Shown here piece after piece: positions 27,136 through 60,500 of a stretch of 64,000 nt of DNA. Origin of the DNA: Vulcanimicrobiota bacterium. Lineage in GTDB: Bacteria; Vulcanimicrobiota; Vulcanimicrobiia; Vulcanimicrobiales; Vulcanimicrobiaceae. Every line of letters begins with the position of its first letter. Positions within the stretch are counted from its first letter, which is position 1. The translations under genes were made by a program, and so were the position numbers. Under the pieces are notes generated by a model. It made no database searches. It saw nothing but the letters and a program-made list of their open reading frames with translations, and was not told where the DNA came from. Location of the stretch: positions 1,271,762 to 1,335,761 of the forward strand of contig PLJL01000004.1 in assembly GCA_003140215.1 (NCBI GenBank), in the 5' to 3' direction.

Positions 27136-28743
27136 TCACGCCTTCCGCGCGAAGTCCGCGATCAGCGCGGGCGTCGCGGCGTCGAAGCCCACGACGTCGA
27201 GCATGCCGCCGTCGTTGGGGTCCGCGATGGTGAACCCGTTCGACGTCATGCCGACCACGACGAGCTTCGCCGGAATGCCCATCCGCTCGCGGTAGCGCCG
27301 CAGCGCCTCGTCCGGGTGGATGGTGCCGGCCCACGTCTCCGAGTCCGTCATGATGAGGAACAGGTCGACCGTGAGCCGCCGCTCGAGCGCGTAGAGCATC
27401 GGGAGCGCGCAGTCCGTTCCCATGAACGGCAGCGCGGCCGTGCGCTGCACGACCGAGTCGACGCTTTCGGCCTTGCCGATCTCGAACGGCACGAAGTCGT
27501 CCGCGAACGCCATGACCCGCACCGCCTCCTCGGTGCGCACGTGCGTGAGCGCCATCGCCGCCGCGCCGACGCGGGGCGTGATCCCCGGGATACCGGCGAT
27601 CGTGCCGCTCGACATCGAGCCCGACACGTCGAGCCCGATCAGCGTGCGCGCACCGGTCGGCTCGACGTTCTCGAACGCCAGCGCGAACGCCGCGTCGAGC
27701 GCGTCGACGACCGCCGGCACCGGCGTCCACGTCGCCGAGCCGCGCACGCCGCGTCCCGACTTGTAGGTCGTGAGCGCCGCGAGCAGCGCGATCGGGTGGA
27801 TACGTGCCTTGCGCAGCGCCGTCCGATCCGTGATCCGCGCGATCACCGGTGCGGTCGCCTCGCCCTTGGGCGTGAGCAGACCGACCCGCGTGAGCGTCGC
27901 GAGGTTACGGATCAGGGCCGTCAGCGGCAGTCCCGGGAGCAGCGCCTCCCAAACACGCGGCTCCTTGAGCCACGCGCTCGGCAGCGCTTCACGCGGGAGC
28001 CCGGTCGCGCGCACCAGCTCCGCGCACGTTGCGGCGTCGGCGCCCTCGGACACCTTGGCCGTTGCGTGCGCGCGCAGGAGCGACAGCGCCTGGAACTCCT
28101 CCGTGGGGACGTCGCCCTTCACGATCCACGCATAGAGCGCGGCGCGCTCGGCGTCCGCGGCGAGCGGGTGCGCCAGACGGAAGACGTCACGGTGCGTGAA
28201 GCCCTCGCGGTTCTGGTACTTGAGCGCCTGGTACGCGAGATCGCGGACCGGCTTCGCCTCGTACCAGCCGCGCAGACCGCGGCGCAGGCCGCGGCCCCAG
28301 CCGCGGAACTGCTCGATGAACGAGCAGAACGTGAGCAGGTGCGAGCCCGTGCGGCAGACGCGCCGCAAGCCCTCGCCCAGTGCGAAGCTGCGCGTCGCCT
28401 CGTCGCCGAAGCCCGCGCACGCCGCGAGCGCGAAGATCGCCGGCTGCACCTTCGGCGCGCGACCGCTCTCGGAGAGCTCGATCACGCGCGCGACGACCCG
28501 ACGGCCGTCCTCGCGAATGGCGTCGACGAGGTTCACCGCGTTCTGCTTGGTGAGCCGGTCCTCGGTCGCGTAGTACGTACCCGATTCGGCACCGAGAATC
28601 AGAAAGCGGTCGACGCGCGCCCAACGGTCGAGCGGGTAGACGTAGCCGCCGTTGTCGGCGCGCACCTGGGCGCGACCCGGCTGCGGCTGCGTCTGCAGCG
28701 TGCCCGCGGCGCGGCCACGGAAGATCCGTGCGAGCATGTTCAT
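27136..28743 (-). CDS. rsr: Ro60/Rsr-type TROVE and vWA domain RNA-binding protein
   Basis: 535 aa from ATG 28743, with GGGAGG upstream. Ro60 proteins are ring-shaped HEAT-repeat RNA chaperones that bind Y RNAs and the ends of misfolded RNAs; bacterial Rsr works with nucleases such as PNPase. Residues ~30-350 form the TROVE domain (NGGYVYPLDRWARVDRFLILGAESGTYY, ALAYQALKYQ). The vWA domain has an intact MIDAS: DVSGSMS at 372-378, MGTD and IMTDSETW. It lies downstream of rtcB on the same strand, separated by three Y-RNA-like elements. The ORF opens further upstream only through the Y-like element. Confidence 0.93.
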   Translation of the reverse strand: MNMLARIFRGRAAGTLQTQPQPGRAQVRADNGGYVYPLDRWARVDRFLILGAESGTYYATEDRLTKQNAVNLVDAIREDGRRVVARVIELSESGRAPKVQPAIFALAACAGFGDEATRSFALGEGLRRVCRTGSHLLTFCSFIEQFRGWGRGLRRGLRGWYEAKPVRDLAYQALKYQNREGFTHRDVFRLAHPLAADAERAALYAWIVKGDVPTEEFQALSLLRAHATAKVSEGADAATCAELVRATGLPREALPSAWLKEPRVWEALLPGLPLTALIRNLATLTRVGLLTPKGEATAPVIARITDRTALRKARIHPIALLAALTTYKSGRGVRGSATWTPVPAVVDALDAAFALAFENVEPTGARTLIGLDVSGSMSSGTIAGIPGITPRVGAAAMALTHVRTEEAVRVMAFADDFVPFEIGKAESVDSVVQRTAALPFMGTDCALPMLYALERRLTVDLFLIMTDSETWAGTIHPDEALRRYRERMGIPAKLVVVGMTSNGFTIADPNDGGMLDVVGFDAATPALIADFARKA

Positions 28744-28816
28744 GATGGTGTTCCCTCCCTTCGTGCGTGAAATCGAGGTGATGATGAATGCGAGCCGGAG
28801 CCTGCGGGCGAGTGAT

Positions 28817-28938
28817 GTTCGAGGGTGGGCTTGCGCCCCGCGCTCTACCACTGAGCTACGTGCGATGCACGGCGGGAATCGAACCCGCGCCTCTCGTTTA
28901 GCAGACGATAACCTCGGACGTTCGGCCCGCAAGCCGAA
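28817..28938 (-). ncRNA. Y-RNA-like element 1 with circularly permuted tRNA-like module
   Basis: Read on the minus strand. It begins with hairpin TTCGGC-TTGCGG-GCCGAA (28938-28921), then stem strand GTCCGAGG (28919-28912), which pairs with CCTCGAAC (28824-28817) with one mismatch. Inside, in order, are TCGT-CTGCTAA-ACGA (28908-28894), a T arm GCGGG-TTCGATT-CCCGC (28888-28872), a CGTGC-ATC-GCACG hairpin equal to a closed acceptor stem (28871-28859), and a D arm GCTC-AGTGGTA-GAGC (28856-28842). This is a tRNA read in permuted order, as in YrlA-type bacterial Y RNAs. The GTCCGAGGTTATC block resembles the Ro-binding strand of Y RNAs. Position next to Ro60 supports the call. Confidence 0.75.
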
Positions 28939-28955
28939 ACCGTGGACGAGCGATT

Positions 28956-29053
28956 GTTCGAGGAGTGAGGCTCACCCGTAGCGGACTCGCCCCATGCGCT
29001 TTCGCGCGGTCGTGAGGAACGATAACCTCGAACGTCCGGCCCACGGCGGCCGG
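28956..29053 (-). ncRNA. Y-RNA-like element 2
   Basis: Same architecture as element 1: a leading hairpin CCGGCC-GCCGTG-GGCCGG (29053-29036), then GTTCGAGG (29033-29026) perfectly paired with CCTCGAAC (28963-28956). GAGGTTATCGT is shared with element 1, and the 3' flank CTCGAACA is also shared. The interior differs: CTCAC pairs with GTGAG and encloses a GCGC-GAAA-GCGC hairpin, with no tRNA-like arms. Likely a second Ro60-bound RNA with a different effector domain. Confidence 0.68.
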
Positions 29054-29085
29054 CTTATGATTGTGAGGACTCGCAGACGAATGGT

Positions 29086-29208
29086 GGTGCGGGAGCAGGA
29101 CGACACCTCGCGTCCCTCGCCGACATTGCGCGGCTTGCGCCGCACGCCGCCTTTTGGATTCGAACCAGTAGCTTCCAGAGAACCCGCACCGTCCGGCCCG
29201 CGAGCCGG
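29086..29208 (-). ncRNA. Y-RNA-like element 3
   Basis: Begins directly after the rtcB stop with hairpin CCGGC-TCGCGG-GCCGG (29208-29193), then GGTGCGGG (29190-29183) perfectly paired with CCCGCACC (29093-29086). The stem sequence differs from elements 1 and 2, yet pairing is retained in the same place, which suggests compensatory change. The interior carries a T-loop-like GGTTCGAATCC (29167-29157) and a GCGGC-GCAA-GCCGC hairpin (29143-29130). Third of three tandem elements between rtcB and rsr. Confidence 0.62.
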
Positions 29209-29210
29209 GG

Positions 29211-30401
29211 TCAGCCCTTGATGCAGACCACCTGGCGGAGCGTGTGTACGATCCGTACCAGATCGTGCTGCGCCGCCATGACGTCGTCGATGTCCTTGTA
29301 CGCGGACGGTGCCTCGTCGAGGACGCCCGCGTCCTTGCGGCATTCGACGCCGTGCGTCTCGCGCGCGAGATCCTTGAGCGTGAGCGTGCGCATCGCCTCG
29401 CCGCGGCTCATCCGGCGGCCGGCGCCGTGCGAGCACGACTCGAACGATTCCGGATTGCCGAGACCGCGCACGACGAACGAGCGCGCGCCCATCGAGCCGG
29501 GGATGAAGCCGAGCTCGTCGAGGCCGGCGCGGACCGCACCCTTGCGCGTCACGTACACGTCGGCACCGAAGTGCCGTTCGCGCGCGACGTAGTTGTGGTG
29601 GCAGTTCACGACGGTCTCGGCGCGCGCGAAGCGCGGCAGCTTGACCTTGCCGTCGCGCAGCGCCTCGAGCGCGTTCTCCATCATGATCTCGCGGTTGGTG
29701 CGAGCGTAGTCCTGCGCCCAGCCTACCGCGTCCACGTAGGCGTCGAACGCCGGCGTGTTCTCGGTGAGGTGGGCGAGGTCGCGATCGGCGATCGTGACGC
29801 CGGCGCGCTCGAGCTCCTCGTGCGCGCGCTCGATGTAGAACGAGCCGATGCGATTGCCCGCGCCGCGCGAGCCCGAGTGCAGGACGAGCCAGACGTCGCC
29901 CGCTTCGTCGAGGCAGACCTCGCAGAAGTGGTTGCCGCCGCCCATCGTGCCGAGCTGCTCGCGCACGTTGCGGGTCGAGACCTTCGGCGCGCGCTCGACC
30001 ACGCGGTCGTAGCGCTCGCCGAGGTCGGCCTTCCACGCGCGCTCCGCCGCCGGCGTCGCATCGCGGTGAGCCGCCTTACCGACCGGCACCACGTGCTCGA
30101 TCGCGTTGCGAACGCCGCGGAGGTCCGTCGGAAGGTCCTCGGCGCGCAGGGTGAGCTTCTGCGCGATCATGCCGCAGCCGATGTCGACGCCGACCGCGGC
30201 CGGCACGATCGCACCGATCGTCGGGATGACGCTGCCTACGGTCGCGCCACGGCCGAGGTGCACGTCCGGCATCACCGCGACGTGCGAGTGCACGAACGGC
30301 AGCGAGGCCATGTTGGCGACCTGCTTGCGCGCGTTCTCGTCGAACTCGACGCCGTCGACCCACGCCTTGATCGGGTGGCCGGCGTTCTCGATCACTTCCA
30401 C
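29211..30401 (-). CDS. rtcB: RNA-splicing ligase RtcB
   Basis: 396 aa from GTG 30401, chosen because AAAGGAGG lies 8-9 bases upstream. RtcB joins 2',3'-cyclic-phosphate or 3'-phosphate RNA ends to 5'-OH ends using GTP and Mn2+, as in tRNA repair and splicing. Metal and catalytic blocks are visible: VDIGCGM at 72-78, GGGNHFCEV, HSGSRGAGN, NCHHNYV and SHGAGRRMSRGEA, whose His is guanylylated in known RtcBs. The C-terminus LRQVVCIKG is intact. It precedes the Y-like RNAs and rsr, and its leader contains a terminator. No rtcA or RtcR regulator is in the window. Confidence 0.96.
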   Translation of the reverse strand: MEVIENAGHPIKAWVDGVEFDENARKQVANMASLPFVHSHVAVMPDVHLGRGATVGSVIPTIGAIVPAAVGVDIGCGMIAQKLTLRAEDLPTDLRGVRNAIEHVVPVGKAAHRDATPAAERAWKADLGERYDRVVERAPKVSTRNVREQLGTMGGGNHFCEVCLDEAGDVWLVLHSGSRGAGNRIGSFYIERAHEELERAGVTIADRDLAHLTENTPAFDAYVDAVGWAQDYARTNREIMMENALEALRDGKVKLPRFARAETVVNCHHNYVARERHFGADVYVTRKGAVRAGLDELGFIPGSMGARSFVVRGLGNPESFESCSHGAGRRMSRGEAMRTLTLKDLARETHGVECRKDAGVLDEAPSAYKDIDDVMAAQHDLVRIVHTLRQVVCIKG

Positions 30402-30407
30402 GGTGAT

Positions 30408-30416
30408 GCCCTCCTT
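30408..30416 (-). promoter_or_regulatory. Strong Shine-Dalgarno of rtcB
   Basis: AAAGGAGGG on the minus strand fixes the GTG start at 30401. The open frame continues upstream through the leader terminator hairpin, so the longer start is unlikely. Confidence 0.75.
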
Positions 30417-30420
30417 TCGG

Positions 30421-30457
30421 AAAAATAAGAAACGGGGTGAGCGCATCGCTCACCCCG
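30421..30457 (-). terminator. Intrinsic terminator in the rtcB leader (probable attenuator)
   Basis: On the minus strand CGGGGTGAGC-GATGC-GCTCACCCCG is a perfect 10-bp stem with a 5-nt loop, followed by TTTCTTATTTTT. It ends only about 20 nt before the rtcB start and lies downstream of the predicted rtcB promoter. No gene sits between promoter and hairpin, so it should act by premature termination. A competing antiterminator is not obvious to me. Confidence 0.72.
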
Positions 30458-30605
30458 CCTTCGGCGTTCGTGGTTTGCGCTCGAGTGTTAGGTTCGGCTC
30501 GCCCCGATCGGCGTGCACGCCGTCAGCGGCTTCCGCGAGGCGGAGCCGTGATTTCGATCGAGGCCGGAGACGTACGATGGTGTTTGCATGATGAACTCGG
30601 GAAGA

Positions 30606-30635
30606 AGCGTACGCGACGATTGCGACCTTTGTCAA
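30606..30635 (-). promoter_or_regulatory. Predicted sigma70-type promoter for rtcB-rsr
   Basis: On the minus strand TTGACA (30635-30630) is followed after 18 bp by TACGCT (30611-30606). Transcription would start near 30599, giving a leader of about 200 nt before rtcB. Confidence 0.5.
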
Positions 30636-30701
30636 GGTGTCGGCGCGCGTTTTTCGACCGGTGTCGATTGTGGAGATCGAAAAAGATTTTATGAGAACCG
30701 C

Positions 30702-30731
30702 TTGACAAGCAGCTAGACTTCGCTCTAGGAT
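30702..30731 (+). promoter_or_regulatory. Predicted sigma70-type promoter for the tRNA array
   Basis: TTGACA (30702-30707), an 18-bp spacer, then TAGGAT (30726-30731). It points toward the array and lies about 67 bp from the divergent rtcB promoter, so the two units may share regulation. Confidence 0.55.
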
Positions 30732-30734
30732 CGG

Positions 30735-30941
30735 TCCGTTATGATGCAACGATCCGCATCGGCCCGCCCATCATCCAAAGGCCACTCGCTATGGTCTTTA
30801 GATTCGTATTGCCTTAGCGCGAATACGTTTGGGCGAGTCGCGGCGAAGCCGGAAGGCATCGTCGTATCGTAGCTGTCGCACCGGAGCTCTTGTAGGTTTA
30901 CGAGGGGATCGGCGCACAGCCGGTCCCCTCGGTCGTTTCCT
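30735..30941 (+). other. Structured leader of the tRNA array
   Basis: No gene is supported here. Three hairpins can be drawn: AAAGGCCA with TGGTCTTT (30777-30799), CGTATT with AATACG (30805-30827), and CGAGGGGA with TCCCCTCG (30901-30931), the last enclosing a CGGC/GCCG stem. They may guide processing of the polycistronic tRNA precursor or control its transcription. Confidence 0.4.
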
Positions 30942-31009
30942 GGGTCCGTGTCGTGGCGACGGGCGCGATTCCAACCCGCGCAGTGGGCGTTCGACTCGTC
31001 CCGGACCCG
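30942..31009 (+). tRNA. tRNA-Trp(CCA), reduced D arm
   Basis: Acceptor GGGTCCG pairs with CGGACCC. Anticodon loop TTCCAAC gives CCA. T arm GGGCG-TTCGACT-CGTCC. The D arm is only GTCG-TGG-CGAC, with a 3-nt loop, so D-loop/T-loop contact would be lost. Discriminator G, followed by CA rather than CCA. Confidence 0.75.
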
Positions 31010-31013
31010 CATG

Positions 31014-31090
31014 GTGGTCGAGGCCGAAGCATTCGAGGCGCTCGCCCGTGACGCGAGCCGAAGTGGGTGAAAGTCCCATCGGCCACCCCA
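31014..31090 (+). tRNA. tRNA-His(GTG) with extra G-1 and C33
   Basis: Eight-pair acceptor GTGGTCGA/TCGGCCAC includes the G-1:C73 pair diagnostic for tRNA-His. Anticodon stem CTCGC/GCGAG encloses CCGTGAC, so position 33 is C. The T loop TGAAAGT is non-canonical. It is followed by CCCA. Confidence 0.8.
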
Positions 31091-31408
31091 AGTATTTTCG
31101 ACGTGCACGCTCGTGCACGTGTAGTTCAACGCGTCCTTTGAAAACTGCATACGTTCATCGCAACTATCGCGCGAGACTCTCGTGCGGCGCACAGGCACGC
31201 GCCGCGCCGTTGAGCCGATCTCGCGCGCCCCGGCGGCCGGGGCAACGTCGTGCGCCCGGCGAGAGGGGAGCGGCGAGGTCGCAATCTTCGTTCCCAGGAC
31301 CGCGTGTTCACGGTGAGCCGCGCGGTCCGCCGGCGCCGTCGTGGAGTGACGTGCGCGAAAGCACTGTGTCGTGGTGGTCCGCGACCCCGTGCAGCTCACC
31401 GTGTCTTT
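31091..31408 (+). ncRNA. Structured spacer in the tRNA array, possible non-coding RNA
   Basis: A 318-bp gap in an otherwise tight array. It holds a perfect hairpin ACGTGCAC-GCTC-GTGCACGT (31101-31120), GGACCGCG pairing with CGCGGTCC (31297-31328), and a 10-bp long-range pair CACGGTGAGC (31309-31318) with GCTCACCGTG (31394-31403), which encloses a GTGC-GCGAAA-GCAC hairpin. The last two compete. No reading frame is convincing. It could be another Y-like RNA or a processing element. Confidence 0.4.
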
Positions 31409-31497
31409 GGAACGGTGGCCGAGTGGTAAGGCAGCGCGCTGCTATCGCGTCGAAGCTCGCAAGAGCTGCTCAGGTTCGAGTCCTGACCGTTCCGCCA
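31409..31497 (+). tRNA. tRNA-Ser(GCT)
   Basis: Class II tRNA. Acceptor GGAACGG/CCGTTCC, anticodon stem GCGCG/CGCGT with loop CTGCTAT, long variable arm AGCTC-GCAA-GAGCT, T arm TCAGG-TTCGAGT-CCTGA, discriminator G and encoded CCA. Confidence 0.9.
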
Positions 31498-31499
31498 AT

Positions 31500-31575
31500 C
31501 GGGAGTTAGCTGAGACAGTTGTAGCGCGGGTTTGAAGCACCCGAGACGCGGATGCGAGCGCCGCACTCCCGGCCA
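31500..31575 (+). tRNA. tRNA-Phe(GAA), abnormal T loop
   Basis: Acceptor CGGGAGT/ACTCCCG, anticodon stem CGGGT/ACCCG with loop TTGAAGC, encoded CCA. The T loop is TGCGAGC instead of TTCRANY, with a mismatched last T-stem pair. Confidence 0.8.
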
Positions 31576-31579
31576 ATTC

Positions 31580-31654
31580 GCCCCCGTAGCTAAGCGGAAA
31601 AGCGACGGCCTACGAAGCCGTTCATCGGCGGTTCAAATCCGCCCGGGGGTCCCA
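31580..31654 (+). tRNA. tRNA-Arg(ACG)
   Basis: Acceptor GCCCCCG/CGGGGGT, anticodon stem ACGGC/GCCGT with loop CTACGAA, T arm GGCGG-TTCAAAT-CCGCC, encoded CCA. A34 would need conversion to inosine by TadA. Confidence 0.9.
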
Positions 31655-31657
31655 TCT

Positions 31658-31731
31658 GGGCTGCCATGTTCCAAGGCTGGCGAACCTCACTTGCAATGAG
31701 GTTGTGTAGGGTTCGATACCCTAGCGGTCCA
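31658..31731 (+). tRNA. tRNA-Ala(TGC)
   Basis: Acceptor GGGCTGC/GCGGTCC keeps the G3:U70 identity pair of tRNA-Ala and A73. Anticodon stem CCTCA/TGAGG with loop CTTGCAA. T arm TAGGG-TTCGATA-CCCTA. The D arm pairs poorly. It is followed by CTA rather than CCA. Confidence 0.8.
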
Positions 31732-31749
31732 CTAAACATCATCTGACGA

Positions 31750-31823
31750 TCCCGAGTGGTCCAACGGTACGACGTCCGATTGTTAATCGGAAAAACTCAG
31801 TTCGAGTCTGAGCTTGGGAGCCA
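31750..31823 (+). tRNA. tRNA-Asn(GTT)
   Basis: Acceptor TCCCGAG/CTTGGGA, anticodon stem TCCGA/TCGGA with loop TTGTTAA, T arm CTCAG-TTCGAGT-CTGAG, discriminator G and encoded CCA. Confidence 0.9.
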
Positions 31824-31824
31824 C

Positions 31825-31900
31825 GCCGGCGTAGACCAACGGCAGAGTCAACAGGTCGAGGGCCTGTAGAGTGCGAGTTCAAATCTCGCCGCCGGTACCA
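31825..31900 (+). tRNA. tRNA with Leu anticodon GAG, class I, C33
   Basis: Acceptor GCCGGCG/CGCCGGT, anticodon stem ACAGG/CCTGT with loop TCGAGGG (C33), T arm GCGAG-TTCAAAT-CTCGC, CCA encoded. The 5-nt variable loop is unlike normal bacterial tRNA-Leu, which has a long arm. Confidence 0.8.
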
Positions 31901-31903
31901 TTT

Positions 31904-31979
31904 GCCGCTCTCGCTCAACGGTAGAAGCAACGCACCCAGGCTGCGTCAAGTCTCGGTTCAAATCCGAGGAGCGGTACCA
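31904..31979 (+). tRNA. tRNA with Leu anticodon CAG, class I, C33
   Basis: Acceptor GCCGCTC/GAGCGGT, anticodon stem ACGCA/TGCGT with loop CCCAGGC (C33), T arm CTCGG-TTCAAAT-CCGAG, CCA encoded. Short variable loop CAAGT. Confidence 0.8.
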
Positions 31980-31981
31980 AC

Positions 31982-32056
31982 GTCGTCGTAGACCAATGTA
32001 GAGTCAGCGCACTCAAAATGCGTTCAGTCTCGGTTCGAGTCCGAGCGGCGACACCA
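31982..32056 (+). tRNA. tRNA with Leu anticodon CAA, class I
   Basis: Acceptor GTCGTCG/CGGCGAC, anticodon stem GCGCA/TGCGT with loop CTCAAAA, T arm CTCGG-TTCGAGT-CCGAG, A73 and CCA. Short variable loop TCAGT; third Leu anticodon without a long arm. Confidence 0.82.
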
Positions 32057-32057
32057 C

Positions 32058-32145
32058 GCCTGAGATGTCCCGTTTGGGAGGGACGGCGGATTGTAAACCC
32101 GTCGCGCTTGTCGCACTGTCGGTTCAAATCCGACTTCAGGCACCA
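32058..32145 (+). tRNA. tRNA-Tyr(GTA)
   Basis: Class II. Acceptor GCCTGAG/TTCAGGC, D arm GTCCC/GGGAC, loop TTGTAAA with an A-C mismatch at the base of the loop, long variable arm, T arm GTCGG-TTCAAAT-CCGAC, encoded CCA. Confidence 0.82.
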
Positions 32146-32147
32146 TT

Positions 32148-32213
32148 GCGGGCACGCAGAGTGCGAAGTGGGTCTCATAAGTCCACGAGCGAGGGGCAGT
32201 TCCTCGGCCCGCA
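32148..32213 (+). tRNA. tRNA-Met-like (CAT), D-arm reduced
   Basis: Only 66 nt. Acceptor GCGGGC/GCCCGC, anticodon stem TGGGT/GTCCA with loop CTCATAA. The D arm is reduced to CGC-AGAGT-GCG, and the T arm CGAGG-GGCAGTT-CCTCG has a non-canonical loop. TCCA follows the discriminator. It resembles an organelle-style minimal tRNA or a decaying copy. Confidence 0.6.
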
Positions 32214-32218
32214 TCCAC

Positions 32219-32295
32219 ACCTCTATAGCTCAGCGGCCTAGAGCACCCGGCTCATAACCGGAAAGTCCGTGGTTCGACTCCACGTAGAGGTACCA
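32219..32295 (+). tRNA. tRNA-Met(CAT) (or Ile2)
   Basis: Acceptor ACCTCTA/TAGAGGT, D stem GCTC/GAGC, loop CTCATAA, T arm CGTGG-TTCGACT-CCACG, A73 and CCA. The sequence alone does not show whether C34 is lysidinylated to read Ile codons. Confidence 0.88.
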
Positions 32296-32296
32296 T

Positions 32297-32374
32297 CTGG
32301 GCATAGCGGAGCTTGGTCACCGCGCTCCCCTCGGGCGGGAGAGAACGCAGGTTCGAATCCTGCTGCCCAGGCCA
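32297..32374 (+). tRNA. tRNA-Pro(CGG) copy a
   Basis: Acceptor CTGGGCA/TGCCCAG, D stem GCGG/CCGC, anticodon stem CTCCC/GGGAG with loop CTCGGGC, T arm GCAGG-TTCGAAT-CCTGC, CCA encoded. G37 as in genuine tRNA-Pro. Confidence 0.88.
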
Positions 32375-32380
32375 TTTGTC

Positions 32381-32452
32381 GCGCGCGCAGCTCGACGGAC
32401 GAGCCCCGGCCTTCTAAGCCGGCGAATGCGGGTTCGACTCCCGCCGCGCGTT
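32381..32452 (+). tRNA. tRNA-Arg(TCT), no encoded CCA
   Basis: Acceptor GCGCGCG/CGCGCGT, D stem GCTC/GAGC, anticodon stem CCGGC/GCCGG with loop CTTCTAA, T arm GCGGG-TTCGACT-CCCGC. Followed by GTG. Confidence 0.85.
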
Positions 32453-32454
32453 GT

Positions 32455-32525
32455 GTCCGCGTAGCTCACCGGCAGAGCAGCACGTTGGTATCGTGCCGAC
32501 AGCGGTTCGACTCCGCTCGCGGGCT
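32455..32525 (+). tRNA. tRNA-Thr(GGT), no encoded CCA
   Basis: Acceptor GTCCGCG/CGCGGGC, D stem GCTC/GAGC, anticodon stem GCACG/CGTGC with loop TTGGTAT, T arm AGCGG-TTCGACT-CCGCT. Followed by TAT. Confidence 0.85.
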
Positions 32526-32528
32526 TAT

Positions 32529-32607
32529 CTGGGCGTAGGGAAGCCAGGTCATCCCGCCTGCCTCGGACGCAGGAGCATCGCGAGTTCGAATCTCGCCGCC
32601 CAGACCA
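32529..32607 (+). tRNA. tRNA-Pro(CGG) copy b
   Basis: Acceptor CTGGGCG/CGCCCAG, D stem GGGA/TCCC, anticodon stem CCTGC/GCAGG with loop CTCGGAC (same anticodon as copy a but A37), T arm GCGAG-TTCGAAT-CTCGC, CCA encoded. Paralogue of copy a. Confidence 0.85.
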
Positions 32608-32608
32608 T

Positions 32609-32683
32609 CTCCCCGTAGCTCAGCGGAAGAGCGCCGCTTTCCGAAGGCGGGCGCCGGCGGTTCGAATCCGTCCGGGGAGACCA
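32609..32683 (+). tRNA. tRNA-Arg(CCG)
   Basis: Acceptor CTCCCCG/CGGGGAG, D stem GCTC/GAGC, anticodon stem CCGCT/GGCGG with loop TTCCGAA, T arm GGCGG-TTCGAAT-CCGTC, A73 and CCA. Confidence 0.88.
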
Positions 32684-32687
32684 TCGC

Positions 32688-32761
32688 TCCGGGATCGTCC
32701 AGTGGCAGGACGCGAGCCTTTGGCACTCGCTACGCTCGTTCGATTCGAGCTCCCGGAGCCA
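32688..32761 (+). tRNA. tRNA-Gln(TTG)
   Basis: Acceptor TCCGGGA/TCCCGGA, D stem GTCC/GGAC, anticodon stem CGAGC/ACTCG with a C-A closing mismatch, loop CTTTGGC, T arm GCTCG-TTCGATT-CGAGC, G73 and CCA. Confidence 0.85.
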
Positions 32762-32767
32762 ACCAAT

Positions 32768-32843
32768 GCCGGCGGAGCTCGAGTGACAGAGCCGCGGATT
32801 TTTAATCCGAATGGTGCGGGTTTGAGCCCCGCCGCCGGCACCA
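32768..32843 (+). tRNA. tRNA-Lys(TTT), T loop with T56
   Basis: Acceptor GCCGGCG/CGCCGGC, D stem GCTC/GAGC, loop TTTTTAA on CGGA/TCCG, T arm GCGGG-TTTGAGC-CCCGC. Position 56 is T rather than the near-invariant C. CCA encoded. Confidence 0.82.
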
Positions 32844-32848
32844 CACGA

Positions 32849-32922
32849 TCCGAGATCAGCCAACGGCAGGCTGCGAGGTTCTGAGCCTCGTCATCGTCGT
32901 TCGAATCGACGTCTCGGAGCCA
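32849..32922 (+). tRNA. tRNA-Gln(CTG)
   Basis: Acceptor TCCGAGA/TCTCGGA, D stem AGCC/GGCT, anticodon stem CGAGG/CCTCG with loop TTCTGAG, T arm CGTCG-TTCGAAT-CGACG, G73 and CCA. Confidence 0.88.
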
Positions 32923-32923
32923 T

Positions 32924-32999
32924 GCGCGCGAAGCAAACGTGGAATTGCGCCGGACCCTTACTCCGGCAATGCTCGGTTCGAATCCGAGCGCGCGCACCA
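32924..32999 (+). tRNA. tRNA-Lys(CTT), C33
   Basis: Acceptor GCGCGCG/CGCGCGC, D stem GCAA/TTGC, anticodon stem CCGGA/TCCGG with loop CCCTTAC (C33), T arm CTCGG-TTCGAAT-CCGAG, A73 and CCA. Confidence 0.85.
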
Positions 33000-33002
33000 A
33001 AT

Positions 33003-33077
33003 GACGCAGTAGGAAAGTGGGAATCCGGCGAGCTGCATCCTCGCCAAGAACGTGTTCGATTCACGTCTGCGTCTCCA
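33003..33077 (+). tRNA. tRNA-Cys(GCA)
   Basis: Acceptor GACGCAG/CTGCGTC, anticodon stem GCGAG/CTCGC with loop CTGCATC, T arm ACGTG-TTCGATT-CACGT, discriminator T (U73, a tRNA-Cys determinant) and CCA. Confidence 0.88.
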
Positions 33078-33078
33078 T

Positions 33079-33155
33079 GCCGGTGTAGCTCGCCTCGGAA
33101 GAGCGGTCGCCCCGTAAGCGACAGGCAATCGGTTCGAATCCGATCACCGGCTCCA
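33079..33155 (+). tRNA. tRNA-Thr(CGT), C33
   Basis: Acceptor GCCGGTG/CACCGGC, D stem GCTC/GAGC, anticodon stem GTCGC/GCGAC with loop CCCGTAA (C33), T arm ATCGG-TTCGAAT-CCGAT, CCA encoded. Confidence 0.85.
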
Positions 33156-33166
33156 ACTCTCTTCTC

Positions 33167-33255
33167 GGAAGGTGCCGGACAGTGGTGTCCAGGCGGTCCT
33201 GAAAACCGTGGGGGCGTGATGAGCGCTCGGCGTTCGATTCGTCCACCTTCCTCCA
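33167..33255 (+). tRNA. tRNA-Ser(TGA), C33
   Basis: Class II. Acceptor GGAAGGT/ACCTTCC, anticodon stem GCGGT/ACCGT with loop CCTGAAA (C33), long variable arm, T loop TTCGATT on a stem with one mismatch, CCA encoded. Confidence 0.82.
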
Positions 33256-33256
33256 G

Positions 33257-33331
33257 GGTCTCGTAGTGTAGTGGACTGCACCGCTGATTGTCGATCAGCT
33301 AGTACGAGTTCGATCCTCGTCGAGGCCGCCA
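33257..33331 (+). tRNA. tRNA-Asp(GTC)
   Basis: Acceptor GGTCTCG/CGAGGCC, D stem GTGT/GCAC, anticodon stem GCTGA/TCAGC with loop TTGTCGA, T arm ACGAG-TTCGATC-CTCGT, G73 and CCA. Confidence 0.88.
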
Positions 33332-33332
33332 T

Positions 33333-33408
33333 ATCGGGGAATGCAAAGCGTCGCGCGCCCGTGTTTTCACCTCGGTACTAGCCGGTTCGAGTCCGGTCCC
33401 CGATACCA
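33333..33408 (+). tRNA. tRNA-Glu(TTC)
   Basis: Acceptor ATCGGGG/CCCCGAT, anticodon stem CCGTG/CTCGG with one T-T mismatch and loop TTTTCAC, T arm GCCGG-TTCGAGT-CCGGT, CCA encoded. The D arm pairs poorly. Confidence 0.8.
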
Positions 33409-33420
33409 ACGTTTCCTCAG

Positions 33421-33497
33421 TTAGGATACCATGGCGGTCACTTGCTTCGTACCGCGCAGAGTGCCACCACGTTGTCACCGCGGATTTGGTATCCTAA
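33421..33497 (+). repeat. 11-bp inverted repeat closing a tRNA-sized insert before the HNH gene
   Basis: TTAGGATACCA (33421-33431) is the exact reverse complement of TGGTATCCTAA (33487-33497). The enclosed 55 nt can form GCGGT/ACCGC but has no T or D arm, so it is not a normal tRNA. It ends 6 bp before the HNH endonuclease start. It could be a regulatory hairpin, an element end or a small structured RNA. Confidence 0.6.
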
Positions 33498-33503
33498 GGT
33501 TAT

Positions 33504-34232
33504 ATGAGAGCCGGCCGGATCTCTGTCTTCTGGTCTTACTCTGATGCGGAGCTGGAAACCGCATTGAAGGAGGCGCGCTCGCTTTCAGGCTTCTTGAGGA
33601 CTATAGGTCACGCTGTTTCGGCGAACTCGTATCGAACCCTCAATAGGCGGATTGCAGCGAGCTCGATCGACCTCTCCGCACTTGATCGGTACCATGCGGT
33701 CAGAGCTGCGTCTTTCCGCAGGCGTACTCCGCTCGTTGATGTGTTGGTCGCGGGCCGCCCGTTTAATAACGGGGTCTTGAAGCGCCGCCTACTGGCGGAG
33801 GGGTTGCTCGAAGATCGCTGCCAGAAATGCGGACTGGGGCCGACATGGCAAGGCCAGAGAATCAGCCTGCAGCTGGACCATATGAATGGCGATCGTCAAG
33901 ATAACCGCCTTGAGAATCTGCGTATTCTTTGTCCAAACTGTCATTCTCAAACCCCGACGTTTGGTAGCAAAAAGTTGGTCCGTGTCGTCCATAAGTGCAG
34001 AACATGCAGAAGCGCGCGCGTTACCGACCCGACACGAGAATGCCGCGACTGCTACGAGGGAAGACAGCGCCGAGAACGCGGGTGCGTTCCAATTGAAGAA
34101 CTAATCACTCTCGCTCGAGCCTATGGTTTCACAAGGGCTGGACACCGCCTTGGAATCAGCGGCGGTGCCGTTAAGAAACGCATCATCAAGCACCAGGCAA
34201 GGGAAGCCAAGCGCCGGGAAACGGGCTCATAG
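33504..34232 (+). CDS. HNH endonuclease inserted in the tRNA array
   Basis: 242 aa from ATG 33504. N-terminal helices (SYSDAELETALKEARSLSGFLRTIG) look DNA-binding. The central HNH/zinc domain is CQKCGL...LQLDHMNGDRQDNRLENL...CPNCHSQT. A second Cys pair CRTCRS...CRDC follows, and a C-terminal helix-turn-helix (ITLARAYGFTRAGHRLGISG). This is the plan of phage-type homing endonucleases. It interrupts the array between tRNA-Glu and tRNA-Ile and is visibly less GC-rich than its surroundings, consistent with recent insertion. Its target may lie in a tRNA or array junction. Confidence 0.88.
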   Translation: MRAGRISVFWSYSDAELETALKEARSLSGFLRTIGHAVSANSYRTLNRRIAASSIDLSALDRYHAVRAASFRRRTPLVDVLVAGRPFNNGVLKRRLLAEGLLEDRCQKCGLGPTWQGQRISLQLDHMNGDRQDNRLENLRILCPNCHSQTPTFGSKKLVRVVHKCRTCRSARVTDPTRECRDCYEGRQRRERGCVPIEELITLARAYGFTRAGHRLGISGGAVKKRIIKHQAREAKRRETGS

Positions 34233-34281
34233 GCAGAGCAGCGCCTCCAATAGCGCGTAGTCCTTTTTTCAATCCCCCCAT

Positions 34282-34358
34282 CCCGTCGTAGCTTAACGGC
34301 AAAAAGCGCCGCCCCGATAAGGCGGAGACCGCGTGTTCAACTCACGCCGGCGGGACCA
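34282..34358 (+). tRNA. tRNA-Ile(GAT), C33
   Basis: Acceptor CCCGTCG/CGGCGGG, anticodon stem CCGCC/GGCGG with loop CCGATAA (C33), T arm GCGTG-TTCAACT-CACGC, A73 and CCA. Confidence 0.85.
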
Positions 34359-34359
34359 T

Positions 34360-34436
34360 GCGCGAGAGGTCCTCTGGGAAGGACGTCGGTCCTACAAACC
34401 GATCGTTGTCGGGTTCGAATCCCACCTTGCGCACCA
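34360..34436 (+). tRNA. tRNA-Val(TAC), C33
   Basis: Acceptor GCGCGAG/CTTGCGC, D stem GTCC/GGAC, anticodon stem TCGGT/ACCGA with loop CCTACAA (C33), T loop TTCGAAT on a stem needing one bulge, A73 and CCA. Confidence 0.83.
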
Positions 34437-34439
34437 ATT

Positions 34440-34513
34440 GCAGATCTAACACAGTGGTAGTGTACCGGCGTGCCGAGCCGGAGAGACGGGTTCGATCCCC
34501 GTGGTCTGCCCCA
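34440..34513 (+). tRNA. tRNA-Gly(GCC)
   Basis: Acceptor GCAGATC/GGTCTGC, D stem ACAC/GTGT, anticodon stem CCGGC/GCCGG with loop GTGCCGA, T arm ACGGG-TTCGATC-CCCGT, CCA encoded. Confidence 0.9.
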
Positions 34514-34514
34514 T

Positions 34515-34588
34515 GCGGGTGAAGCATTGTGGTGATGCTTCTGACTTCCAATCAGAGGAGCGGGGTTCGATCCCCCGCGCCCGCACCA
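34515..34588 (+). tRNA. tRNA-Gly(TCC), last of the array
   Basis: Acceptor GCGGGTG/CGCCCGC, D stem GCAT/ATGC, anticodon stem TCTGA/TCAGA with loop CTTCCAA, T arm CGGGG-TTCGATC-CCCCG, A73 and CCA. Confidence 0.9.
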
Positions 34589-34628
34589 TTTTAACCACCA
34601 CCCCGATCGTCACAGAAAGGAGGCGTCC

Positions 34629-35156
34629 ATGTCCGTCCTGCTCCTTAACTTCACCTATGAGCCGCTGGGCGTCGTGGACGTCGCGCGGGCCGTGCGGCTG
34701 CTCTTCGCGCGCAAGGTCGAGCTCGTGCACGCCGGCAGCGGCGAGATCCGCTCCGTGACGGCGGCGTTCCCGCTGCCGTCGGTCGTGCGGCTGCTCTACT
34801 ACGTCGCGCGCCGCCGCAAGAAGGTCGCGCTGACGAAGAAGAACGTGCTGCTGCGCGACGACTACGTGTGCGCGTACTGCGTCGCACCGGGCGGCCGCGA
34901 CATGACCGTCGACCACGTCGTGCCGCGCAGCCGCGGCGGCCGCTCGGTGTGGGAGAACCTTGTCGCCTGCTGCTCGGCGTGCAATGCGCGCAAGCGGGAC
35001 CGCACGCCGGACGAGGCGCGGATGCCGCTGCGCCGCAAGCCGCGCGAGCCGCGCTATATCCCGTGGGTGGTCGTGCGTCGCAACACGGCGCCCGACGAGT
35101 GGGGTGCGTACCTCGCACTCTACCACGTCGACATCGAAGAGCGGGTCGGGCGCTGA
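34629..35156 (+). CDS. HNH endonuclease at the end of the tRNA array
   Basis: 175 aa from ATG 34629, with GAAAGGAGG upstream. N-terminal VLLLNFTYEPLGVVDVARAVRLLF, then the HNH core CAYC...MTVDHVVPRSRGGRSVWENLVACCSACNARKRDRTP and the tail IPWVVVRR. This compact family is widespread in bacteria and often sits near repair or mobile genes; its role is not firmly known. It follows tRNA-Gly by 40 bp and shares the strong ribosome binding site style of rtcB and rsr, so I include it in the island. Confidence 0.88.
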   Translation: MSVLLLNFTYEPLGVVDVARAVRLLFARKVELVHAGSGEIRSVTAAFPLPSVVRLLYYVARRRKKVALTKKNVLLRDDYVCAYCVAPGGRDMTVDHVVPRSRGGRSVWENLVACCSACNARKRDRTPDEARMPLRRKPREPRYIPWVVVRRNTAPDEWGAYLALYHVDIEERVGR

Positions 35157-60339: not shown

Positions 60340-60500
60340 GGCGTCCGCGCGACGGTATCCTGACTTCGCGGATCGGTGCTGGTGCTGCGGCCTTCCAGCC
60401 CTTTCGGACCGTGACGCGCAGCGGCTCCCCGCTGACAGTGGCGCGACCGTGCCGGATTCCCACCGGCTTCCCGCGCACGCGAACTTCCCCGCCCTTCGAC
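60340..60500 (-). promoter_or_regulatory. Cobalamin (adenosylcobalamin) riboswitch
   Basis: On the minus strand the conserved core reads GGGAAGCCGGTGGGAATCC, then CGCCACTGT, and the B12 box AGTCAGGATACC (60365-60354), about 48 nt before btuB. The order and sequences match the cobalamin riboswitch consensus. B12 binding should lower btuB-C-D expression, probably through sequestering the ribosome site AGGGAAGG just upstream of the ATG. Confidence 0.93.

Follow-up and report, generated by a model that had tools for sequence, protein, structure and literature searches.

In Salmonella, the rsr-yrl-rtcBA operon places Ro60, Y RNAs and the RNA ligase RtcB in one transcript; to our knowledge, there is no tRNA array in it. 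Comparable components, with Y-like candidates for the Y RNAs, lie together in an island of an uncultured Candidatus Eremiobacterota bacterium, studied here in a window of 64,000 nucleotides (the whole stretch analysed: assembly GCA_003140215.1, contig PLJL01000004.1, positions 1,271,762 to 1,335,761; coordinates below count from its first letter). The minus strand of the island carries rsr, three Y-like RNAs and rtcB; the plus strand carries 31 tRNA genes and two HNH genes, diverging from the first unit. Each unit begins with a leader that contains a short open reading frame (ORF), and the one ahead of the tRNAs uses all 20 amino acids in 43 codons. The island probably joins a spare set of tRNAs to a unit for RNA repair (RtcB, Ro60, Y-like RNAs), both under predicted attenuators that would sense depletion of almost any tRNA. 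A bolder form of the proposal, which we hold with a little less assurance and still think more likely than not, makes it a general tRNA-depletion alarm: mini-genes of about 43 codons would have evolved to use all amino acids and as many as three quarters of the isoacceptors, and a shortage of nearly any one tRNA pool would stall the ribosome on them and release a nuclease-tolerant second tRNA set together with the repair operon.

The trn operon of Anabaena PCC 7120 is a close functional parallel with another switch. According to the part of the published account available, its 26 tRNAs are silent until translational stress, under a regulator, TrcR, shared with rtcB (PMC10272220). Like the island as interpreted here, it is a long operon of spare tRNAs apart from the housekeeping set; in Anabaena rtcB is co-repressed and HNH genes are up in a trcR deletion; unlike the compact island with its predicted leader attenuators, it is a megaplasmid operon, its rtcB is chromosomal and its off-switch is a repressor. 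Ro60 or TROVE, part of the island, is named nowhere in that portion of the Anabaena text (PMC10272220). The Salmonella RNA repair operon is regulated by damaged tRNAs, again as far as the available part of the source goes (PMC7790460). That operon is activated by RtcR; the family of this activator (PF06956) was found in 0 of 7 genomes here, with the E. coli positive control detected, and RtcR control of the island was rejected on this ground. In jumbo phages tRNAs occur together with RtcB and, for a small subset, with TROVE as well (PMC7824862, in the part available). Phages Blueeyedbeauty and Cece resemble the island: a Ro-like gene lies among or close to tRNAs, and there are HNH genes along with RtcB or an RNA ligase; they differ in that the tRNAs are spread among phage genes, and the regions read have no two-leader divergent layout. 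The preliminary description of this DNA held that such a union was not described as a system; that can stand at most for the chromosomal form, as the linkage of Ro60 and tRNAs is annotated in these two phages. Dense extra tRNA clusters are also reported from bacteria, in mycobacterial tRNA arrays (PMC5966550) and in Acidithiobacillus elements; among the papers listed, none showed a link of these clusters to Ro60, RtcB or an attenuator.

For the control of the island, the relevant models are attenuators of the trp and his type, which comprise a leader ORF, a terminator and a competing hairpin; in classic leaders of this kind a single control codon, or a few, come in runs, and textbooks present attenuation as a way of sensing amino acids singly. 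The array leader carries the corresponding sequence features (a leader ORF, a terminator-type hairpin and a mutually exclusive antiterminator), and differs in its codons: there is no run for one or a few amino acids, 31 isoacceptors being called upon in 43 codons, and most of them appear once or twice. Among the papers listed by searches of open-licence literature there is no leader peptide sampling every amino acid and no such island. The control region comprises the following.

30702..30731, plus strand: promoter of the tRNA array, TTGACA-18-TAGGAT (10 of 12 matches; shuffled sequences expect 0.1)
30741..30872, plus strand: array leader ORF, 43 codons, all 20 amino acids, its ATG 9 nt after the -10 hexamer
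30881..30912, plus strand: predicted antiterminator hairpin, 12 pairs (92.6% of 95 cells paired, 8 genomes)
30901..30931, plus strand: terminator-type hairpin of the array leader, 13 pairs (99% of 103 cells paired, 8 genomes)
30606..30635, minus strand: promoter of rtcB, Y RNAs and rsr, TTGACA-18-TACGCT
30488..30589, minus strand: rtcB leader ORF, 33 codons, kept in the 6 genomes compared
30430..30460, minus strand: terminator-type hairpin between the rtcB promoter and rtcB, 14 pairs and a CTTATTTTTC tail

Comparison was made among 11 genomes of the genus, designated G000 to G010; G000, the source of the window, is 3.9 Mb and 87% complete, G005 is 99% complete in one contig, and G008 and G010 are 97% and 81% complete. 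Both divergent promoters are conserved in the relatives read. The preliminary description had the two units leave a single promoter region of about 100 bp: the promoters are indeed divergent, with 66 bp between them, but a leader of about 200 nt comes after each one, and the gap from rtcB to the first tRNA is 540 bp. It overlooked the leader ORFs and competing hairpins, which are the most informative part of the locus as read from its sequence.

The antiterminator and the terminator-type hairpin of the array leader share the 5' arm of the terminator and so are mutually exclusive. Versions of the antiterminator slid along the alignment are 25-57% paired, and its covariation score was reached by 2 of 500 shuffles; in the terminator-type hairpin 10 of 13 pairs are invariant, so that it gives little information on covariation. 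Its call as terminator-like holds in G002, G003 and G009, and fails in the G000 window, where the T tract is short. On both sides the leader hairpin stands 31-36 nt after the ORF stop (32-36 nt on the array side, 31 nt on the rtcB side of G000). A DNA search with the array leader found it in 8 of the 11 genus genomes (G004 by motif alone) and gave four matches of 22-39 bases in 87 other genomes. The predicted layout is that of ribosome-mediated attenuation, and hairpins between promoter and genes argue against constitutive transcription.

The array leader ORF spans 41-44 codons, its ATG lies 9-10 nt downstream of the -10 hexamer in the six genomes measured, and its stop is kept, as TAG or TAA, at one aligned place. 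Eight genomes have the full array leader, that of G006 being cut by the contig end; the leaders of G003 and G008 are nearly identical and were counted as one. Twenty distinct amino acids are encoded in G000, G001, G002 and G007, 19 in G003, and 18 in G004 and G008. None of 4504 windows of 43 residues from proteins of the 64-kb window reaches 20 (mean 15.1), nor does any of 67 small ATG ORFs, the leader excluded; of 73367 stop-free six-frame windows of the 64 kb, the leader not excluded, 39 do. Isoacceptors, counted for all genomes with the core set of G008 (42) and simple wobble rules, number 31 in G000, 28 in G001, 33 in G002, 29 in G003, 28 in G004, 29 in G007 and 29 in G008. Among 13461 control windows from 100 coding-like ORFs the mean is 21.3; at least 28 are reached by 0.57%, at least 29 by 0.16% and 31 by none, and the maximum among 76 small ORFs is 28. 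A narrower control (ten window genes, 2859 windows) had a maximum of 27; that of the wider control is 30, so leaders with 28-30 isoacceptors no longer exceed every control. Between G000 and G002, 21 positions of the leader agree, W, C, H and K are relocated, and all 20 amino acids are retained; under random replacement this has P of 0.0005-0.0024. The ratio of nonsynonymous to synonymous differences (pN/pS) is 0.40-0.58 in the closest pairs.

On the other side, the rtcB leader ORF is 33 codons long in each of the 6 genomes compared (a second ATG gives 34 in G009) and encodes 15-17 amino acids with 22-26 isoacceptors; 1.1% of control windows of 33 codons reach 24 isoacceptors and 0.06% reach 26. 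The hairpin behind it is present in 7 of 7 aligned genomes, with a terminator-like call in G000, G002 and G009 and none in G003; the rtcB leader of G004 has neither ORF nor hairpin.

From these parts we infer translated leader ORFs and switching leaders, working as follows. While tRNAs are plentiful, a ribosome would complete the leader ORF and cover the antiterminator, and the terminator would form. When a tRNA is cut, uncharged or short, the ribosome would stall, the antiterminator would form instead, and polymerase would read into the array; a similar leader would switch on the repair operon (RtcB, Y-like RNAs and Ro60) as well. Array tRNAs charged by host synthetases could then keep translation going, RtcB could reseal cleaved RNAs, and Ro60 with Y RNA could bind damaged or misfolded ones. 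If this is true, a leader sampling all amino acids would gauge, by simple physical means, how the tRNA pool as a whole is faring; the island would be a chromosomal backup of the decoding machinery under an attenuator that reads the pool and not one amino acid. The large tRNA arrays of bacteria and phages would gain a testable role as backup after tRNA-targeting toxins or defence systems, Ro60 and RtcB would be tied to that role, and the leader would offer a ready reporter for agents that cut or uncharge tRNAs.

The tRNA genes themselves occupy most of the plus-strand unit.

30942..34588, plus strand: tRNA array, 31 genes that together serve all 20 amino acids (ARAGORN; Rfam RF00005)

ARAGORN finds 28 of them at its default threshold and 31, all on the plus strand, at a relaxed one, which adds His, a second Met and Glu; 21 reach the Rfam RF00005 cut-off. 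With the relaxed count, domain matches and RNA folds, the previously described arrangement of Ro60, Y-like RNAs and RtcB divergent from 31 tRNAs is confirmed, including the full coverage of 20 amino acids and, by profile searches, two HNH genes on the tRNA strand. Translation of 3289 codons from ten window genes would be covered by the array for 98% under generous wobble and 88% under strict wobble.

The array is not the host's only set. G008 has 44 core tRNAs covering all 20 amino acids, plus its array, and so has a large tRNA cluster beside a housekeeping set, as in Anabaena; the possibility, raised earlier, that the array might be the sole tRNA set of the host is thereby excluded. The 60 genome-wide tRNA matches of G000 include 37 tRNAs that do not belong to the array. 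Its core lacks Asp, Phe, Gln-ctg, Glu-ctc and some Val and Pro isoacceptors; these are present in G008, and since G000 is 87% complete the gaps are put down to the assembly. The array as a replacement for lost host tRNAs was rejected accordingly.

Array tRNAs evolve quickly and keep their shape. Median identity between G000 and G008 is 97% for core tRNAs (n=37) and 71% for array tRNAs (n=27), and array tRNAs are 62% identical to their own core counterparts (n=28). In 7684 comparisons of stem pairs (35 isoacceptors, 8 genomes; here, as for position 33 and discriminators, tRNAs unassigned by ARAGORN are excluded), 4576 are unchanged, 327 have single changes that stay paired, 2576 have double changes that stay paired, and 205 are unpaired. 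At variable stem positions 97.7% of cells are paired against 66% after shuffling, a figure to be read with the fact that ARAGORN itself favours paired stems. The discriminator base is that of the core for ten amino acids, and G3:U70 of Ala is kept in 6 of 7. Because stems, many discriminators and the Ala pair are kept, most array tRNAs are likely to be charged and used.

The anticodon loops are altered. Position 33 is U in 81 of 81 core tRNAs; in the array (default threshold) it is C in 33 of 175 and A in 1 of 175, and C33 recurs in the relaxed set in Ser-tga (6 of 7 genes) and Thr-cgt (5 of 6). With such loops, and with C33 in particular, the spares may be cleaved poorly by anticodon nucleases; for cluster C1 mycobacteriophages, anticodon-loop changes in tRNAs are predicted to evade these enzymes, according to the available part of the source (PMC10264068). 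Leu tRNAs of G000 and G001 (73-76 nt) have no long variable arm; three such genes lie at 31825-32056 of the window.

The island is an accessory element of one Candidatus Eremiobacterota genus. The tRNA array is present in 8 of the 11 genomes. Counted by ARAGORN at default, unassigned tRNAs included, it has 28 genes in G000, 23 in G001, 13 in G002, 25 in G003, 18 in G006 (at a contig end), 23 in G007, 28 in G008 and 19 in G009; in G004 a single tRNA-Pro is left. The TROVE family PF05731 occurs in 10 of 60 genomes, G000 included, and 8 of the 10 are in the genus. rtcB is found in 7 of the 11 (the G007 copy has an in-frame TGA) and was not found in G001, G005, G008 or G010. As far as contigs reach, the island is flanked by liv genes (livF) on one side and by genes of the HNHb/SDR side on the other, G009 being the exception: there rtcB is at a separate locus without tRNAs, with both leaders still there, and the array locus has its own leader. 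The array-type leader beside that rtcB (L072:8419-8636 of G009) has ORF (32 codons) and hairpin, and no tRNAs follow; this orphan would be a small RNA standing by itself. In G001 and G008 rtcB has been lost and both leaders are retained; in G008 about 1 kb of other sequence replaces rtcB directly behind an intact rtcB leader (L057:7820-8720). G005 has neither rsr nor rtcB and 45 tRNA matches genome-wide; 411 bp separate its livF from the SDR gene, which is the island-free arrangement. G010 has no match to rsr, rtcB or the leader. Because related species share the linkage, and all but one of those compared have it at the same position in the chromosome, it is more than chance, and the outcome that would have told against the earlier account, absence of the linkage from related genomes, is excluded. 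As for that account's stress or anti-phage module of tRNA replacement and repair, what is borne out is a conserved accessory tRNA set beside genes of RNA-repair type, its tRNAs under structural constraint.

A number of observations weigh against predicted attenuators that read the whole tRNA pool. The leader ORF was first noticed by eye, and the tests of it came later. Nor is it alone in having 20 amino acids: so do 3 of the window's 49 ATG ORFs with 40-46 codons (leader not excluded), such ORFs are commoner when GTG and TTG starts and lengths up to 56 codons are admitted (three in the G009 contig), and the antisense frame of the G000 leader also has all 20 and no stop. In G009 the array leader has 17 amino acids and 27 isoacceptors, and the orphan leader 15 and 21. 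Retention of all amino acids is less striking in other pairs (G000-G001, G000-G007 and G007-G001; P 0.06-0.27); pN/pS is 0.7-1.1 outside the closest pairs, and one off-frame value (0.50) is below the in-frame one (0.69). The T tract behind the array hairpin, good in G002, G003 and G009, is weak in G000, G004 and G007. The rtcB side is weaker again: its leader has weak alternative folds only, with no clear antiterminator; 22 isoacceptors, the count in G002, are ordinary (9.8% of controls reach 22); and its pN/pS of 0.8-1.8 indicates no purifying selection. An unconserved peptide sequence would be expected there if only diversity matters, and equally if the ORF is non-coding. rtcB itself was not found in G001 and G008 and has an in-frame TGA in G007. 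Among the tRNAs, discriminators unlike the core's occur in each of the three Phe tRNAs and in some of those for Arg, Gln, Glu, His, Pro and others. PrrC/RloC-like nucleases, tried as the attacker, were rejected: PF13166 exceeds its cut-off in 0 of 11 genomes.

Some of these points would suit a spare tRNA set held under a protein repressor, as in Anabaena, with the leader ORF as a by-product of leader sequence. In its favour, in the available text TrcR silences 26 tRNAs and also represses rtcB, and HNH genes rise in its deletion (PMC10272220); the missing amino-acid constraint in the rtcB leader points the same way. Such a repressor would leave unexplained the two arm-sharing hairpins behind the ORF in 8 genomes, an isoacceptor diversity of the array leader above nearly all coding and small-ORF controls, and a stop kept as TAG or TAA at an aligned place, and we judge the idea unlikely. 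Decay is another way to read the fast divergence of the array tRNAs, the loss of U33 in a fifth of the genes, the presence of some unassigned tRNAs, and the reduction of G004 to one tRNA: the tRNAs would be a relic or pseudogenes, or else decoys soaking up nucleases. Stems that pair as well as those of core tRNAs (with ARAGORN's preference for paired stems in mind), the dominance of compensatory changes, the many discriminators and the Ala G3:U70 (6 of 7) that are kept, and G000 anticodons that cover all 20 amino acids make this very improbable.

A further perspective sees in the array a phage legacy: a cluster of tRNAs that supplement codon supply or act against defence, with no regulation of their expression. 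Phages do carry such linkage. A Ro-like protein occurs in 348 of 50,697 phage records, and at least 10 tRNAs lie beside Ro60 in 6 of 80 viral contigs (80 of 269; many stretches are short). By annotation, Streptomyces phage Blueeyedbeauty has Ro60 amid 22 tRNAs and a tmRNA with HNH genes, and Microbacterium phage Cece has RtcB, Ro60 and 6 tRNAs together; these are the two with the linkage among five phage regions inspected, Alice having 2 tRNAs in 41.6 kb and Phosso and BearBQ no tRNAs in the stretches examined. RtcB or RNA ligase genes accompany HNH genes in annotated phages as well. Of 8 other Ro60-linked clusters, 5 contain tRNAs without U33 (5-15%) and three have none. The flanking genes of G000, however, where compared with relatives, match the same transporter and enzyme genes, hairpins stand between promoter and genes, and a search of the array against phage DNA (204 records) and plasmid DNA (103 records) gave no match to more than 9% of the query among the matches listed. 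The prophage reading was rejected on the matches listed, and a phage-inherited cluster expressed without regulation seems quite unlikely; the array may in itself be phage-derived, as the preliminary description suggested. Predicted attenuation of a spare tRNA set and its repair unit remains our preferred account.

Among 80 of 151 Ro60 loci from genomes, at least 15 tRNAs were found in four of the genus and in Bradyrhizobium sp. C9; three plasmid TROVE loci have 1, 0 and 0 tRNAs. The Bradyrhizobium locus (L277:4349-16546), a second cellular case from a distant phylum, has Ro60 amid 33 tRNAs and an HNH gene of the PHROG of HNHb, the gene that closes the island. Its array is preceded by an ORF of 48 codons with 20 amino acids, a lead only: all ten Ro60-linked loci scanned contain small ORFs with 19-20 amino acids, so that the scan for such leaders before other arrays is uninformative. 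In one viral contig (L177) Ro60 stands beside 35 tRNA matches, one with the anticodon cta and one with a four-base anticodon.

The minus strand carries the following genes.

27136..28743, minus strand: rsr, Ro60 orthologue with TROVE and vWA_Ro60 domains (PF25045 211 bits, PF05731 130 bits; 2nvo Rsr 422 bits)
28804..28930, minus strand: Y-like RNA with a tRNA-like module, YrlA type (closed-end fold of -51.3 kcal/mol; RF02553 37.3 bits, below the gathering score of 69)
28942..29044, minus strand: Y-like RNA (shared 5' GGGCCGNAC..GAGGTTATCG, 3' CTCGTCC; fold of -42.2 kcal/mol)
29073..29201, minus strand: Y-like RNA (shared 5' end GGGCCGGAC..GGGTTCTC; fold of -57.7 kcal/mol)
29211..30401, minus strand: rtcB, RNA ligase (PF01139 408 bits; aligned with 2epg from residue 25 to the end)

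All three Y-like RNAs fold closed with GNGGGCCG...CGYCYRC ends. The Rfam YrlA model matches directly upstream of rsr in six relatives at 36-48 bits; it also gives 28-29 bits inside the tRNA array and is unspecific here. The start of rtcB is likely to be the GTG at 30401 behind AAAGGAGGG and not the ATG at 30446. In a tree of Rsr made by a quick method (rows of fewer than 420 residues dropped, together with 7 loci that duplicated genomes already compared), the genus and family rows form one fully supported clade of 9, whose position among phage and cellular rows is not fixed.

The HNH genes lie within the array and at its far end.

33504..34232, plus strand: HNH endonuclease gene inside the array (PF13392; phrog_10822 138 bits)
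34629..35156, plus strand: HNHb, the HNH gene at the end of the island; this is the island copy, and the family is also represented by a core copy

Island copies of HNHb are 71-89% identical in island-bearing relatives; the core copy, found in 13 of 15 genomes searched, is 55-61% identical. The gene inside the array has a sole relative (39%), in G008 and elsewhere in its array, among 9 other stretches compared, and is likely a homing-type insert. An inverted repeat, TTAGGATACCA...TGGTATCCTAA (33416-33500, plus strand), lies directly ahead of it. Where G000 and G008 have HNH genes, the arrays of G001 (L052:5902-6357, minus strand) and G007 (L071:3831-4286, plus strand) contain a DUF6847 gene. 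Outside the island, the window holds a cobalamin riboswitch (60353-60473, minus strand, 61.9 bits).

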